Shown here piece by piece: positions 1 through 9,394 of a stretch of DNA of 36,592 bases. Source of the stretch: Gammaproteobacteria bacterium (GTDB lineage: Bacteria > Pseudomonadota > Gammaproteobacteria > Steroidobacterales > Woeseiaceae). Each line of letters begins with the position of its first letter. Within the stretch, counting starts at the first letter, position 1. Position numbers and translations under genes: made by a program. The notes beneath the pieces are model-generated. The model had not been told where the DNA came from, ran no database searches, and worked only from the letters and a program-made list of their open reading frames with translations. The stretch lies in assembly GCA_029865385.1 (NCBI GenBank), contig JAOUGX010000028.1:1-36592 (forward strand), in the 5' to 3' direction.

Positions 1-2544
1 CGCGATCTGTTGCGATGCTATGCGGAACATCAACAGCTATCGGGTGTTGAAACCTGGCATACGCCGGCTATTGGATTCTGGAGCGACTGGCTCGTCGAGC
101 TGTTCGAGTCGGCGGATTTGTCGGCGGCCCGGCCAACCCGAATCGATCACAACGCAGCTACTATCCTCTGGGAACGCTGCCTTGCGGCGCACGGCAGCGA
201 TCAACTGCTCGGTTTCGCGGGTGCAGTTCGCCAGTCTCGCCAGGCCTGGCAACGGCTGCAGGATTGGAACGTGTCGGTCGAAGAGCTATTGCGCTCGTCA
301 CGCAGCGCCGATCAGCAGCTGTTTGCCCGGGCAGCCCGCGCTTACCAGGAGCTGTTGATTCAAAACAACTGGATTGATCCGGCACGCCTTCCCGCCGCCG
401 TTGCAGACGCATTGCAGTCGAATCAAATCGTGCTGCCTCACCGCGTGATGTTTGCAGGATTCGATCGTGCGGCGCCGGTTGTCGAACGCATCATTGACCG
501 GCTGCGAGTGCGGGGCTGCGCCGTCGAATTGGCGCCAGTCGAGAAATACGGCGGCGAGTTGCACGGACAGCCATGCCAGAACCGCCAACAGGAATTCCGA
601 TCCGCAGGGCTGTGGGCACGCAATTATCTGACCCGGCATCCTGATGCCCGCATCGCCATAGTCTGCCCCGACCTGGATGCCGACGCGCCGGGCGCCACCC
701 GTTTGCTAAGGGAGGGTCTGGCACCAGGTTGGCAATACGCGGACGAAGCTGCCCGCGCGTCGGTCAATGTCTCATACGGACGCCGATTGAGTGATTTTCC
801 AGCGGTTGCCGTTGCCTTGCTGGTGCTGCGGTGGATAAACGACGGACTGAGCTCACGGGAGGTCAGCATTTTGCTACGCAGTCCTTTTCTTGCCGGACAG
901 AGAACGTCCGGGCGGTCGCGATTTGAATTGGAATTGCGACGCTGGCCGGACCGGTCCTGGACGGCAGCCAGTCTTGCCAGCTTGTTGCGCGGCCAGGATC
1001 AATCTGATGACTGTCGCGAATGGCTGCAATTCGTCGATCGGGTCGTCGCGTTGCGTCTCGAGTATCGGGCGCACGCCAGCCCGTCGAAGTGGGCAGAAAT
1101 CTTCGATCGATTTCTGGACGAAATCGGCTGGCCAGGTGAGGCGACACGTGACAGTGCTGCATTTCAGTTGCTGGAGCGCTGGCGGTCATTGCTTGGCGAG
1201 CTCGCAGCGACCGGGATGGTCACGTCGGGCCTTTCGATGCCGGCGGCGATCGAGCGATTGAGGACCATGGCGATGGAAGTGGTTTTTCAGCCGGAATCAT
1301 CGCCCGGAATAGTGCAATTGCTCGGCATGCTGGAAGCCAGCGGTCTGACTTTTGATGCGGTCTGGATTTGCGGACTCGATGCGACACGCTGGCCGCCACC
1401 GCCAAACCCGCTGGCGCTCGTTTCCCGACAGCTCCAGGAAAAACATGGGATGCCGGACGCGACACCCGCGGACAGTCTCGCGTTTGCCGAGGCAGTCCTG
1501 CAAGGTATCGCGGACTCGGCACGAACTGTTGTTATGAGTTGGCCAAGAGCGGAGGGCGACGTGCTGCTTTCTCCGAGTCCGCTACTTGCGAATTTCTCGT
1601 TGACGATCACCGACAGCCATTTGGATCCGTCATGGCACGCGTCGAGTTTCCAGGATCCGGAGATGATAGCGATCCTCGATGCAGACAGTGCGCCGGCGGT
1701 CGAATCGCCAGAGGCCGTTTCAGGCGGAGCCTATACGATTCAGATGCAGACAGTCGACCCGTTCTCCGCCTTCGCGCAGGGCCGCCTTGGAATCAAGGAC
1801 CTGCCGCGGTTCGAATCCGGGCTGCCCGCTGCACTGAAAGGCAGTATCGCGCACCGCGTCTTGCACGCTCTGCTGGCTGACAGGCCGGACAGGGACGCCA
1901 TTGCCCAATGGAGCGAAAGCGAACTCACGGCGCGGATTGAAAACGCTCTGGCAAGGGTTTTCGCATCGTCAAACAGACACCTGAACCCCGTGCACCAGCA
2001 ATTGATGGAATTCGAGCGATTGCGGCTCGGAAACATGCTGCGGGTTTTTGTCGGTGCCGAACTGGACCGCCCACCCTTTGCAGTGGAGTGCGTTGAGCAG
2101 CGGTTCGACTTCGAGCGACTCGGCATGCAATTCGGGTTGCGTGTGGACAGAATCGATCGGCTGGCAGACAACACTTTGCTGATCCTCGACTACAAGACCG
2201 GCGCAGCAAAGTCATTGTTGAACAGGGATGGCGAGCTTAGCGATCTGCAACTGGTGGTCTACGCGATGGCGATCGCTGGAGCCATCGACGGAGATATCGG
2301 GGGTCTCGCACTGGTCAATATCGACAGCCGGGGCGTCAGTTACAAAGGCACCGGTGGCAGTGTCGAGTGGGATGCCAGGCGCCGGGACGACTGGCCGCAA
2401 CGCCTGGCATCGTGGATCGATGCTGCAGAAATCGCACTTACCAGCCTGGCACGGGGCGATGCGCGACTGAACATGCAATTGCCGGATTCACATTCAAGGC
2501 CGCTGGCCCTGCTCAGCCGGATTGGGCACTTGCGTCATGAATGA
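1..2544 (+). CDS. AddB-like PD-(D/E)XK nuclease (probable DNA repair protein), 5' partial
   Basis: The frame is open from the first base, so the gene starts upstream and only about 847 C-terminal residues are here. The family (TIGR03623-type, AddB-like) works with an AddA/RecB-like helicase to resect double-strand breaks in the cytoplasm. The visible part has the degraded helicase-like body, a conserved GSIAH motif near 1840 and a C-terminal nuclease core, LILDYKTG, with Asp codon 2188-2190 and Lys two residues on. It overlaps the next gene by 8 bases (ATGAATGA), which implies translational coupling. Oddity: relatives carry an Fe-S cluster built from one Cys in a CPF motif before the nuclease and three at the C-terminus; here these positions read DPF (Asp codon 1756) and a tail with Ser, Arg and Ser. 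The protein may therefore lack the cluster. Family assignment is firm; loss of the cluster is inferred. Confidence 0.88.
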   Translation, partial: RDLLRCYAEHQQLSGVETWHTPAIGFWSDWLVELFESADLSAARPTRIDHNAATILWERCLAAHGSDQLLGFAGAVRQSRQAWQRLQDWNVSVEELLRSSRSADQQLFARAARAYQELLIQNNWIDPARLPAAVADALQSNQIVLPHRVMFAGFDRAAPVVERIIDRLRVRGCAVELAPVEKYGGELHGQPCQNRQQEFRSAGLWARNYLTRHPDARIAIVCPDLDADAPGATRLLREGLAPGWQYADEAARASVNVSYGRRLSDFPAVAVALLVLRWINDGLSSREVSILLRSPFLAGQRTSGRSRFELELRRWPDRSWTAASLASLLRGQDQSDDCREWLQFVDRVVALRLEYRAHASPSKWAEIFDRFLDEIGWPGEATRDSAAFQLLERWRSLLGELAATGMVTSGLSMPAAIERLRTMAMEVVFQPESSPGIVQLLGMLEASGLTFDAVWICGLDATRWPPPPNPLALVSRQLQEKHGMPDATPADSLAFAEAVLQGIADSARTVVMSWPRAEGDVLLSPSPLLANFSLTITDSHLDPSWHASSFQDPEMIAILDADSAPAVESPEAVSGGAYTIQMQTVDPFSAFAQGRLGIKDLPRFESGLPAALKGSIAHRVLHALLADRPDRDAIAQWSESELTARIENALARVFASSNRHLNPVHQQLMEFERLRLGNMLRVFVGAELDRPPFAVECVEQRFDFERLGMQFGLRVDRIDRLADNTLLILDYKTGAAKSLLNRDGELSDLQLVVYAMAIAGAIDGDIGGLALVNIDSRGVSYKGTGGSVEWDARRRDDWPQRLASWIDAAEIALTSLARGDARLNMQLPDSHSRPLALLSRIGHLRHE

Positions 2545-5968: not shown

Positions 5969-6706
5969 TCAGAACTTGCCTTCGATTCGAAAATCCCGGT
6001 GCCCGCGTTCATCGGCGGAACCGAGATAGCGCAATTGATTGCTGAGCCCGGGGGGTGCCTCGGGCAACGCCGCGACTTTTCCGGTGAAGGAATAGCTCCT
6101 GTCGTTGCCAATCGTAATCGTGCCGGCGACGTCCAGCACACCGCTGAGTTCTTCGACGACGCCAATGATGCCGTTCTCGTGTCGGGAGAACTGTGCCTCG
6201 TAGTCGCCAATGACAAGCGGAGAAATATTCGGCGCGAGAAGGTTGGAGAGCCTGACGTTGCCGATGGCATGCTCGGGAAACCCGTCCCGCATTACCAGAG
6301 TTTCCAGCTGTACCCGCAGTGCGCCCTCGAATCCCTGCAGCTGAAAGAGGTCTCTGAACTCTTGCAGGGAAAATCTGCAGTCCACATTGTTCAGTATGAT
6401 GGTGCCCAGTGCGTTTGCACCGATGTCGGTGCGAACAGATCCCGATGCCGTATTGGATGAAATTGCGTATGCCAGTTGTCCTTTGAATACTGACAATGGC
6501 AGGAACGACCAGCGAATATCGTGCAGGTAAAAAGTGCCGGCAGAACCTTGCGCTGCCTGACCGCTCCAGACTGTGCCTGCTATGCCTGAAAGGCGCAGGG
6601 TGCCTGGGGCAAACCAGTCATACGCGATGCGTGCCGGAAACGTCGCCGCAATTCCTACGACAAACGTTGCCGCGGCGGCGGCAATCAGTCGATTCCTCGC
6701 CCACAT
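5969..6706 (-). CDS. gspN: Type II secretion system protein N
   Basis: A 245-residue protein with one N-terminal membrane segment (about residues 8-26), followed by a periplasmic beta-rich domain. This is the layout of GspN, an inner-membrane accessory part of the T2SS that is not universally required. Characteristic features are the LSGIAGTVWSG stretch around residue 40 and the SFLPLSVFKGQL stretch shortly after. It is the last gene of the gspG-N block; its ATG at 6706 follows the gspM stop after two bases (TAATCATG). It ends convergently with the addA-like gene, and a small GCAGG/CCTGC hairpin (5936-5948) lies in the 42-base gap. The GspN call rests on position and fold-like features, and it is the least conserved of the block together with GspM. 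Confidence 0.85.
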   Translation of the reverse strand: MWARNRLIAAAAATFVVGIAATFPARIAYDWFAPGTLRLSGIAGTVWSGQAAQGSAGTFYLHDIRWSFLPLSVFKGQLAYAISSNTASGSVRTDIGANALGTIILNNVDCRFSLQEFRDLFQLQGFEGALRVQLETLVMRDGFPEHAIGNVRLSNLLAPNISPLVIGDYEAQFSRHENGIIGVVEELSGVLDVAGTITIGNDRSYSFTGKVAALPEAPPGLSNQLRYLGSADERGHRDFRIEGKF

Positions 6707-6708
6707 GA

Positions 6709-7185
6709 TTATCGTTCCAAGGTTACAGTTGCATTTACTCGCCCGGGCGTGCCACTGGCGTTGCCGGAAAAACTGCCGGACTGCACATGCATGCCGTAGG
6801 ACTGGCCGAGATCACCGAGCCAGAGGACCAGGTCATCGAATGCGGCATTCTCGAATTCGACCCGGATACCGTTTTGCGAGGTCGGCTGGCTGCGTTGCAG
6901 TGCACTGTACAACCCGCGCTGACGCAGCGTGTTGTCGATGATGACGACCAGCGATTCGTTCTGTCCCACTCGGGGCATCGCAGAAACACTCTGCACCTGA
7001 CCTCGCAATGGTCGGAGATCGGCAAGCGCATTGCTCCACGTTTGTACGCTGTTCCTGAGGCTTGTATGGCTGCGATTGACGGGTTGCCACAGCCCGAAAT
7101 AGAGAATCGCAAACGCTATCATGCCGGCCGCAGACAGTACCAACATGCGCTCCCTTGGTTGGAGTGTTTCGAGCCAGGATTTCAT
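6709..7185 (-). CDS. gspM: Type II secretion system protein M
   Basis: A 158-residue bitopic inner-membrane protein. A short cytoplasmic start (LETLQPRERM) is followed by one membrane segment (about residues 13-33, ending in FGLWQPV) and a periplasmic ferredoxin-like domain. GspM binds GspL and helps hold the GspE ATPase platform at the membrane. The RE(R)xLL-like pattern before the membrane segment and the xxWxPV motif after it are typical. The ATG at 7185 overlaps the gspL stop as ATGA, so the two are translationally coupled. Sequence conservation in this family is low, but length, topology and position between gspL and gspN agree. Confidence 0.9.
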   Translation of the reverse strand: MKSWLETLQPRERMLVLSAAGMIAFAILYFGLWQPVNRSHTSLRNSVQTWSNALADLRPLRGQVQSVSAMPRVGQNESLVVIIDNTLRQRGLYSALQRSQPTSQNGIRVEFENAAFDDLVLWLGDLGQSYGMHVQSGSFSGNASGTPGRVNATVTLER

Positions 7186-8459
7186 GCGCCATTCGCCTGA
7201 ATCTGGATGCGGCTATTTACCTTGTCACCATCCTGGTCTGTCGACTGGATCGCCGCAGTGAATCGGCCGTTCTCCGCAATCGTTCGCTGAACATTGTCCA
7301 GCGTTGCAACGTCCGGGGCCGAAAGTCTCACATCGATTATTCCAGGGCGGTAGCTGATTGCTTCGAGACGAACCGACTGATTCTGTTGCAGTGCGCGACT
7401 GAGTTGTTCCATCGACTGCAGAAATACCGGGGTGGCGCCGGATGCTCCGCCGGCAATGCGGGCACGCAGTGATTTTACCACCGCCGCCGGATCAAGAACG
7501 TCTGCGGCGCCGGGCGATACCTGCCGGTACTGATCGTGAAATTCCGTCATCAAGGATGCTTCCTGCTTCTTCAGACGGTAAATGTCAGTACCTTTCGCGG
7601 CCAGGCTGACCACCAGAAAAGCCAGCAACAGTACCGCTGCATATTTCCATGGCCGAAGCAGGCCGGCGTACTCGGTGCGTTTGCCGAACTCTCCCTGCAG
7701 AAGATTGACACCTGCACCGGTTACCACCGTTACCGCGAGTCGCGGCAATATGCCGTCCGCCAGCACCTTGACGTCCAGGCTGTCCAGTTCCTGGCGAATT
7801 GCTATCCAGTCGTGTGCAAATCGCTCCTCCTCGCCGGCAGCACAGTACACGAGGACATGCCGCGGCATTTCGCCGGCCGCGCCTGTCGCTTCCTTGCCAC
7901 CGGTGCCCGGATCCAGCGCGCCGATGGCGGCCAGGGCATCGCCGGGGCTTACGTTCTGCAGAACCAGCTCGACGTCGGCTCCATTGTTCACGACGACCTG
8001 GTCTTCGGCCACCAGCATGCTGATTGTTCCGGGAATTCGCGCGAGACCGTAGCTCTCCGCCATGATCGATGTCGGGTCGATACCGGCAGCGTCCAGCCGT
8101 GCTATCCAGCCTTCGAGTGTTTCCCTGTTGACGACGGATACCGGGGTCTTGCCGCTGCTGCGCCGGGTGCCTGCCGCGAAATGCAGATTGTCGACGTCTT
8201 CGGCAACGTATTCTTCGAGCGCGTAGGGCAGAGCAGCCTGCAGGCGCGCGCCGCCCTTGATCGGTATATCGACCGAGGTCGTGAGTACGTCGGCGCTGTT
8301 TACCAGCACGATCACTTTGCGATCGCCGATGTCGTTCACGGCTTCGGCCAGAGGGCCGGTCACCGGCGGGCTCCGCCGGCTACCGGTGGATTCAACGGCA
8401 ATCCAATTCGCCGGCTCGTCCGGCGTGTTGCCAATTCTTATGACCAGAAACTCAGACAT
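7182..8459 (-). CDS. gspL: Type II secretion system protein L
   Basis: A 425-residue inner-membrane platform protein that recruits the secretion ATPase GspE through an actin-like cytoplasmic domain. The cytoplasmic part covers about residues 1-265 and includes LPYALEEYVAEDVDNLHFA. A single membrane segment lies near 268-290 (YAAVLLLAFLVVSL), followed by a periplasmic domain that pairs with GspM. I set the start at ATG 8459 (MSEFLVIRIG); a longer open frame reaches 8573 but its extra 38 residues overlap gspK and look like read-through. The gspK stop and this ATG are separated by two bases (TGACAATG), and the stop overlaps gspM as ATGA. GspE, its usual partner, is not in the window. Confidence 0.93.
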   Translation of the reverse strand: MSEFLVIRIGNTPDEPANWIAVESTGSRRSPPVTGPLAEAVNDIGDRKVIVLVNSADVLTTSVDIPIKGGARLQAALPYALEEYVAEDVDNLHFAAGTRRSSGKTPVSVVNRETLEGWIARLDAAGIDPTSIMAESYGLARIPGTISMLVAEDQVVVNNGADVELVLQNVSPGDALAAIGALDPGTGGKEATGAAGEMPRHVLVYCAAGEEERFAHDWIAIRQELDSLDVKVLADGILPRLAVTVVTGAGVNLLQGEFGKRTEYAGLLRPWKYAAVLLLAFLVVSLAAKGTDIYRLKKQEASLMTEFHDQYRQVSPGAADVLDPAAVVKSLRARIAGGASGATPVFLQSMEQLSRALQQNQSVRLEAISYRPGIIDVRLSAPDVATLDNVQRTIAENGRFTAAIQSTDQDGDKVNSRIQIQANGA

Positions 8460-8461
8460 TG

Positions 8462-9394
8462 TCAGGTCGTTCCAAGACTTCGCACGATTGGCGTCACGTC
8501 GCCGCGGGGCCCACGCAACAGCAAGCTGTATAGGGTAATACGTACGGTGTCGATACGCACCACTACGCGGCACTGAAAATAGTCAGTCGATTCGTCCAGG
8601 CGGCTCAGTACGTCCGGTGTCACCAGCGACGCAAAGGCCGTCTGGATGTCGGAGAATCCACCGCTTTCCCTTTCTTTCAGCAGACCTTCGACGTCGGAAG
8701 GCGACATATTCTCGTCCAGCGACTGCAATACGGCCGCTGTAGCGGTATTGACGTTGATATTCGTCCGACCAGGCAGCGCGACGATATGCGGTAACAGCGT
8801 ATCAAGCGATGCCTTGTCCATGCCTTCGAGGGCGGCCAGCTCGCTGACGGAAGTCAGCGTCTGATTGGCACTGCGATACGGCGGGATCATGCCGGTATAA
8901 ATCGGGTCTTCCGCGCCGTCCGGAAACTCCGCATTCTCATCGCTGTCCAGCCAATCCGCGGTGATTCCGGCAAATCGCGGATCGAGACCCAGAGCGTTCA
9001 GCAACCTGCGAAATTGTTCAAGCGCTTCCGCATCGATTTTGCCGTTCGGGTCAATGAGGTTATTGATATTGAATCGTCCCTGAAGGTCTTCAATGGTACC
9101 GAATACCTCGCCACCCTCGATCGGAAAGACCGGCAGGTCGCCGGCCCAGAATTCGCCGAGGTGATCGGTCTGCCCCTCGTCAAGGTCCTGGTGCAGTACG
9201 CTGATAACCAGGCTTTCGGCTCCGAGCGCAACCTGCAGCGCCTGGTCGCGATTCATCAGCACCATCGTACGCCGCACATCCAGCGCATTGTCCCAGGCGA
9301 GATTCGCGGCGACGAGAGTGGCAAGCGCTGTTATCAGCATGGCGGTTATCAGTGCCACTCCCCGATTGCGCCGGGTGCCTGCACGATGGCTCAC
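8462..9394 (-). CDS. gspK: Type II secretion system minor pseudopilin K
   Basis: A 310-residue minor pseudopilin expected at the tip of the T2SS pseudopilus, in complex with GspI and GspJ. The N-terminus has the prepilin peptidase site RNRG/VALITAML. As is usual for GspK, position +5 is not Glu (VALIT instead of FTLIE), because K inserts as the tip without needing the +1/+5 salt bridge. A hydrophobic helix follows to about residue 37, then the large T2SK globular domain (GRFNINNLIDPNG, DWLDSDE, TNINVNTA). The start is GTG at 9394, overlapping the gspJ stop as GTGA. The gene ends two bases before gspL. Confidence 0.94.
   Translation of the reverse strand: MSHRAGTRRNRGVALITAMLITALATLVAANLAWDNALDVRRTMVLMNRDQALQVALGAESLVISVLHQDLDEGQTDHLGEFWAGDLPVFPIEGGEVFGTIEDLQGRFNINNLIDPNGKIDAEALEQFRRLLNALGLDPRFAGITADWLDSDENAEFPDGAEDPIYTGMIPPYRSANQTLTSVSELAALEGMDKASLDTLLPHIVALPGRTNINVNTATAAVLQSLDENMSPSDVEGLLKERESGGFSDIQTAFASLVTPDVLSRLDESTDYFQCRVVVRIDTVRITLYSLLLRGPRGDVTPIVRSLGTT

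Follow-up and report, generated by a model that had tools for sequence, protein, structure and literature searches.

The AddB-like protein encoded at the start of the window (the whole analysed stretch of 36,592 nucleotides, from a Gammaproteobacteria bacterium of the family Woeseiaceae) carries none of the four cysteines that hold the iron-sulfur (Fe-S) cluster in this type of nuclease. The aligned sequences indicate that the cysteine-free state is fixed in Woeseiaceae. We consider it probable that the gene encodes a working AddB in which the cluster, known as the 'iron staple', has been replaced, the loss having been stepwise and fixed in the family and possibly compensated by a salt bridge between an acidic residue and an arginine.

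The cluster is reported to staple together the two terminal extensions of the nuclease, N- and C-terminal, in both Dna2 and AddB, and these extensions are said to support a loop over the DNA channel (PMC4716839). Four conserved cysteines are described as a mark of such nucleases (PMC3466216, PMC5704561, PMC7430649), and all Cas4 members are reported to have them (PMC5704561). In AddAB, the nuclease domain is said to depend critically on the cluster for its integrity, and AddAB with replaced cysteines is described as less stable (PMC7311471). Bad with replaced cysteines was reportedly too labile for purification (PMC7430649), and instability on cysteine removal is also reported for Sso0001 (PMC3466216). 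For DNA2, loss of the cluster is said to affect stability less, or not at all (PMC7311471).

Genomic context of the addB-like gene

The addB-like gene and its partner have the following positions in the window:

1–2544, + strand: addB-like gene (TIGR03623, 'probable DNA repair protein'), 847 aa, 5′ end cut by the contig start
2537–5926, + strand: addA-like helicase-nuclease partner with UvrD-helicase, UvrD_C and PDDEXK_1 matches

The frame at 1–2544 (+) is open, and the contig start is its sole interruption. The NCBIfam profile search showed that the protein scored 580.8 bits against TIGR03623 (cut-off 299.6) and covered positions 13–861 of the 876 of the profile, nearly the whole length; it shares the nuclease motifs of this family. 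A Pfam PDDEXK_1 match was also found in the protein. It does not belong to TIGR02786, the alphaproteobacterial AddB family (alpha AddB), for which it reached 68.8 bits vs a cut-off of 486.5.

The ATG of addA at 2537 lies inside the 3′ end of addB with an overlap of 8 bases, and the listed addA open reading frame starts further upstream, at a TTG at 2522. The best named model for addA was addA_alphas, below its own cut-off (222.6 vs 860.75). An adjoining addA with UvrD-type helicase and PD-(D/E)XK domains identifies the pair as an AddAB-type enzyme. RecC, the one alternative searched for, had no match in the 99.96% complete host genome, and the E. coli control was positive. AddAB is therefore probably the main end-resection enzyme of the host. 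A general loss of Fe-S repair enzymes was rejected as a candidate explanation; the Fe-S loop of EndIII, the sole test, gave one match in the host genome.

The host genome assembly consists of 198 contigs, and addB lies at a contig edge. The final 595 bases of contig C27 (G000; L042, 2075–2669) are 97.6% identical to window 1–595, and the frame on C27 extends the window AddB by 24 residues at the N-terminus. The contigs probably overlap here, with strain variation in the assembly between them. Type II secretion genes (T2SSN, T2SSL and T2SSK matches) lie at 5969–9394 on the − strand, convergent to addAB.

Ligand positions and nuclease core

The residues that bear on the cluster and on catalysis are as follows:

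1756–1758, + strand: GAC codon of Asp586, first Fe-S cysteine position (usual CPFRAFA, here DPFSAFA)
1852–1854, + strand: His618, nuclease core (His in 92 of 92 family rows)
2146–2148, + strand: Asp716, nuclease motif DRIDR (Asp in 221 of 221 rows)
2188–2196, + strand: Asp730-Tyr731-Lys732 (DYK), PD-(D/E)XK motif (Asp and Lys in 92 of 92 family rows; Tyr in 90, Phe in 2)
2248–2262, + strand: Gln750 to Tyr754, motif QxxxY (both residues in 92 of 92 family rows)
2488–2490, + strand: Ser830, first tail cysteine position by CxxC spacing (column variable in the family)
2497–2499, + strand: Arg833, second tail cysteine position
2515–2517, + strand: Ser839, third tail cysteine position
2518–2520, + strand: Arg840, conserved with or without the cluster

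In an iron staple, one cysteine precedes the nuclease core and three lie in the tail; the window protein has D586, S830, R833 and S839 at these places. An earlier note on this sequence had read, by eye, an Asp in DPFSAFA at the first position and Ser, Arg and Ser in the tail, and both readings held. The tail DSHSRPLALLSRI carries Ser830, Arg833 and Ser839, and every one of the 83 four-Cys rows has Cys in columns 586, 833 and 839. The first tail cysteine of the four-Cys rows falls in gap columns beside residues 831–832 of the MAFFT alignment, so Ser830 was assigned by CxxC spacing and structure. The alignment with TIGR03623 relatives and AddB that the note had proposed was run, and all four ligands were absent from the window protein. 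Its final cysteine is residue 697 of 847, which leaves the last 150 residues free of Cys and bears out the note's count of 140.

The note's intact nuclease core was confirmed as well. H618, D716, D730, K732, Q750 and Y754 are invariant among the 92 family rows, so that the H, D, D-x-K and QxxxY elements of a RecB-type PD-(D/E)XK nuclease are present in every one. Dna2, Cas4 and Bad are nucleases of the same type that reportedly keep the four cysteines, unlike the window protein. RecB and lambda exonuclease belong to the same PD-(D/E)XK superfamily and are reported to have no cluster and to carry extensions structurally unlike the staple type (PMC4716839).

Distribution of the cysteines among relatives

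A total of 242 loci gave 240 AddB frames; the remaining two were L034 (an E. coli test stretch) and L233 (no phmmer hit; read separately). Nineteen of the 240 frames were left out of the alignment as fragments, duplicates or truncated, and it comprised the other 221 rows, which are full-length and end in a stop: 92 of f1, which we infer to be Woeseiaceae, the family of the host, 90 of other families of the order, and 39 of the class. A match was found in 99 of 107 f1 genomes, and 98 of the 101 matching non-f1 genomes of the order were taken. For the class, 40 of the 98 non-f1 genomes over the cut-off were taken, of which 30 were the best matches, and G253, just under the cut-off, was added. 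Outside the best 30 there were 11 class genomes, ten of them chosen by hand among those above the cut-off. G336 and G297, in both of which the match stopped early, are two of these ten; the class set is thus not random. For alpha AddB, 22 of 30 loci passed a DYKT[GA] filter and were read, and the other eight were left out. These 22 rows and the 221 relatives make up the 243 aligned rows.

Of the 243 rows, 83 had the first cysteine (Cys1) and the tail triad, 36 had Cys1 only and 124 had neither. All four cysteines were absent from the 92 full-length f1 rows, in which the first position is Glu (45), Asp (43), Asn (2) or Ser (2). Four C-terminal fragments of f1 were read and all end in an [AS]-R...LSR tail. 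The eight f12 rows also lacked all four (Asn in seven and Ser in one at the first position). The Cys1-only rows belong to f15 (20), f6 (13), f2 (1), f3 (1) and the wider class (1). The other f15 rows comprise one with Ser and no triad and one with four Cys, f6 has one more row with Phe at the first position, f2 has one more row with four Cys, and f3 has its single Cys1-only row. All 43 rows of f4, f5, f7, f8, f9, f10, f11, f14 and f16 have four Cys. In the wider class, 38 of 39 aligned rows keep a CPFRAFA-like Cys1 and a CxxCx5C tail, a share that may be overstated since most of these rows are best-scoring matches, whereas Woeseiaceae have Asp or Glu and no tail cysteine. The exception in the class is L232. 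The four-Cys state thus appears to be the usual one beyond the order of Woeseiaceae, with the caveat that the class sample may overstate it.

The earlier note had taken the loss for a change of this organism and had named cysteine-free closest relatives as evidence against its reading. The survey of relatives that it called for showed just such relatives throughout the 92 full-length Woeseiaceae rows, so an organism-specific loss was rejected.

Alphaproteobacterial AddB (TIGR02786) likewise lacks all four cysteines in the 22 rows read. Its first position is Asp, in a DPYAIYA-type motif, and its tail is of the H/D-L-[AS]-R-x-x-E type, akin to that of the window protein. It is a distinct family, with Gly at the position of residue 833 in 16 of 22 rows vs Arg in Woeseiaceae. 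To judge from these rows, a cluster-free AddB is already present in a curated family. No description of a cluster-free AddB appeared in the titles or abstract openings of the literature matches listed. The present data add a second such lineage, together with its intermediates and two residues that may compensate for the loss.

Order of loss

The mixture-model tree was built from 65 hand-picked rows of the 243, with the trait columns removed and without the alpha rows, L092, L116, L228 and L232. It placed f1, f15, f12 and f2 (G146) in one group with an SH-aLRT support of 98, and it needed two changes of the tail state and two of the Cys1 state. An LG+G4 tree and an AU test were run on 41 of the 65 rows. 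A single clade of the 22 tail-less rows was not rejected (p-AU 0.536), and the likelihood was slightly higher under the constraint. The LG+G4 tree did not recover the group of f1, f15 and f12, and it put two f10 rows that have four Cys beside f6 and f3 (support 96, with a long-branch warning). FastTree with all 243 rows and alpha AddB as the root set f1 outside the rest, with three tail and four Cys1 changes; the alpha AddB branch in this tree is long (1.02).

As the simplest reading, we infer that a common ancestor lost the tail triad and that f1 and f12 later lost Cys1 separately, each a single time. Since relatives with Cys1 only exist (36 of 243 rows), the tail was probably lost first, and the loss, family-wide in Woeseiaceae, was probably stepwise. 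For the same reason a simultaneous loss of the four ligands is unsupported. The earlier note had proposed a coordinated loss as a real evolutionary change; the evolutionary part stands, given the tail dN/dS of 0.165, and the coordinated part does not.

Structure of the window protein

The AlphaFold2 model of the window protein, built from 80 sequences, had a mean pLDDT of 92.3, with blocks of 90, 86 and 82 across residues 821–847. Foldseek returned AddAB chain B at ranks first to fifth. The model (1–847) aligned with AddAB chain B over 809 residues with a Z of 22.5 and an rmsd of 4.7, and it has the AddB fold, a helicase-like part followed by a C-terminal RecB-type nuclease. B. subtilis AddB (PDB 3U4Q, 4CEH), the first 'iron staple' nuclease, shares this fold including the C-terminal extension (Z 21.9–22.5); it has the cluster ligands and the window protein has none. 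Helices were modelled at 577–585, 587–595, 798–817, 829–839 and 841–846, so that the model retains both the N-terminal helices on either side of D586 and the C-terminal ones that bear R833–R840. In the model, the two extensions normally stapled by the cluster appear to persist without it.

Sequence profiles did not match B. subtilis AddB in the PDB, and a single-protein query matched nothing; the tail register therefore rests on structure. Residue 847 of the model of the window protein paired with B. subtilis AddB residue 1138 in three of five chains and with 1136 in two. In a four-Cys control (L106), residue 850 or 851 paired with AddB 1132 or 1133 in five of five chains. If the ends are ungapped, C839, C842 and C848 of the control fall on AddB 1121, 1124 and 1130 in five of five chains, the control model being the weaker one (pLDDT 82.8; tail blocks 68, 57, 33 and 23; rmsd to AddB 11.5–11.9). 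Under the same assumption, S830, R833 and S839 of the window protein fall on these residues in three of five chains. We take AddB 1121, 1124 and 1130 to be the published tail ligand positions.

Selection on the gene and its tail

Fifteen independent close pairs of the family gave a dN/dS of 0.157 over the whole gene, 0.131 over the nuclease domain and 0.165 over the tail. The tail is under purifying selection. Decay of the gene to a pseudogene was rejected on the purifying dN/dS and the intact core; the note's statement that the loss is not random decay agrees with a tail value of 0.165 vs 0.157 for the whole gene.

Several tail residues are well conserved in the family: Leu at 838 in 89 of 92 rows, Ser or Thr at 839 in 91 of 92 (Ser 74, Thr 17, Ala 1) and Arg at 840 in all 92. 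Residue 843 is Glu in 87 of 92 family rows and His in the window protein. R840 is also Arg in 82 of 83 four-Cys rows, in 22 of 22 alpha AddB rows and in 19 of 21 tail-less f15 rows. The f15 rows L171 and L177, both with Cys1 only, have Gly at this position. Replacement cysteines were sought among the family rows and none was found. Only residue 60, far from the nuclease domain, is Cys in a majority of 91 family rows (72 of 91).

Possible replacement of the cluster

The addB-like gene would encode a working AddB-like subunit of an AddAB-type enzyme for double-strand-break resection, in which ordinary protein contacts have taken over from the iron staple. The three tail cysteines were probably lost in an ancestor shared by Woeseiaceae and the neighbouring families, leaving a useless first cysteine, and this leftover would then have become Asp or Glu in Woeseiaceae. 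The N-terminal helices at D586 would still pack on the C-terminal helices that carry R833, S839 and R840. A salt bridge could stand in for the cluster, with the acidic residue at the former first ligand position paired to a tail arginine, either R833 or R840, which is almost universal.

Sites that once faced one cluster must be close, which makes such a salt bridge plausible. In f1, position 586 is Asp or Glu in 88 of 92 rows and position 833 is Arg in 87 of 92. Position 833 is Gly in 17 of 21 tail-less f15 rows, 10 of 14 f6 rows and eight of eight f12 rows, and the first site there is mostly Cys or Asn. Against a bridge to R833, alpha AddB has Asp at the first site but mostly Gly at 833; it perhaps uses R840 instead.

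Within 91 family rows, no coupling was detected between 586 and 833. The best coupling partners of 586 were R645 (z 2.4) and P834 (z 2.1), and none of the eight best partners of 833 lies near 586. R840 is invariant in the family and therefore uninformative for coupling. The strongest link between the two old ligand segments was F588–S839 (z 4.6), and it was unsupported after relatedness was allowed for (sign tests, p 0.25–1). Exceptions to the acid-Arg pairing were four of 91 rows with Glu and Gly, Asn or Ala at 833, and four of 91 with Asn or Ser and Arg. The joint change of 586 and 833 maps to a single branch and counts as one event. As 586 and 833 showed no link and the 588–839 link is unsupported, we lowered our estimate for the salt bridge, which we now put forward tentatively.

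The boldest form of the proposal, which we likewise regard as possible but somewhat doubtful, is that after the loss of the tail cysteines two of the ligand sites became an Asp/Glu-Arg bridge that keeps the nuclease domain closed, with the neighbouring families halfway. Such a metal-free protein staple, if real, would free AddAB from any need for iron and leave it unharmed by oxidants. Woeseiaceae and their halfway relatives would also form a natural series on the purpose of the cluster, whether it is structure only or also sensing.

Alternative explanations

The cluster-free state might be ancestral in this branch and common to alpha AddB, and the other groups would then have acquired the cysteines, for the first time or anew. 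In the 22 alpha AddB rows read, the first site is always Asp, the triad is missing and the tail is similar (DYDHLAR..EW), and the alpha-rooted FastTree sets first f1 and next f6 and f3 outside the groups that bear Cys. However, the long alpha branch may attract, and in the mixture model, run without alpha rows, f1 groups with f15 and f12. The four-Cys staple of B. subtilis AddB is also reported in Dna2, Cas4 and Bad, which makes a separate gain unlikely. We judge an ancestral cluster-free state improbable on balance. A redundant AddB nuclease, whose cluster was lost as its cutting became unimportant beside the PD-(D/E)XK domain of AddA, seems less probable still. AddA does have its own PDDEXK_1 match, and loss of the cluster is reported to impair and destabilise AddAB (PMC7311471), yet the six core residues remain invariant throughout the family and the nuclease domain has a lower dN/dS than the gene as a whole.

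The site might also still bind zinc or a cluster through other ligands or residues. A related nuclease of E. rectale (PDB 3L0A) has zinc at the four-Cys site, possibly an artefact according to its reporters (PMC3466216), and Asp is reported as a cluster ligand in NsrR (PMC5411485). Against this, Ser, Arg and Ser are poor ligands, the last 150 residues have no Cys and the only majority Cys column is the distant residue 60, so we regard continued metal binding as very unlikely. An assembly or alignment artefact, in which an error, a frameshift or a misplaced tail mimics the loss, could be suspected from the 198-contig genome and the position of the gene at a contig edge. The frame nevertheless reaches a normal stop that overlaps addA, the tail register fits AddB, and the same states recur in all 92 full-length rows from separate genomes; this family-wide pattern already refutes an artefact, to which we give almost no credence. 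We retain the reading of a working AddB with a replaced staple, in which the real protein would lack a cluster and would probably have kept its activity.

Unusual rows among the relatives

Two members of the class outside the order depart from the four-Cys state. L232 (G336) keeps Cys1 without the tail triad, and L233 (G253), which scored 298.3, just under the cut-off, has no Cys in its last 120 residues. The losses in these two are apparently separate ones. L104 (G156, f2) and L106 (G215, f15) have four Cys, whereas the triad is missing from the one remaining f2 row and the 21 remaining f15 rows of the alignment. They pair together with a support of 100, away from the other rows of their own families, which suggests horizontal replacement or misbinning. 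L352, an AddB-like relative with 31% identity, was found in a genome record labelled Acidobacteria and represents a mislabelled bin or a transfer.
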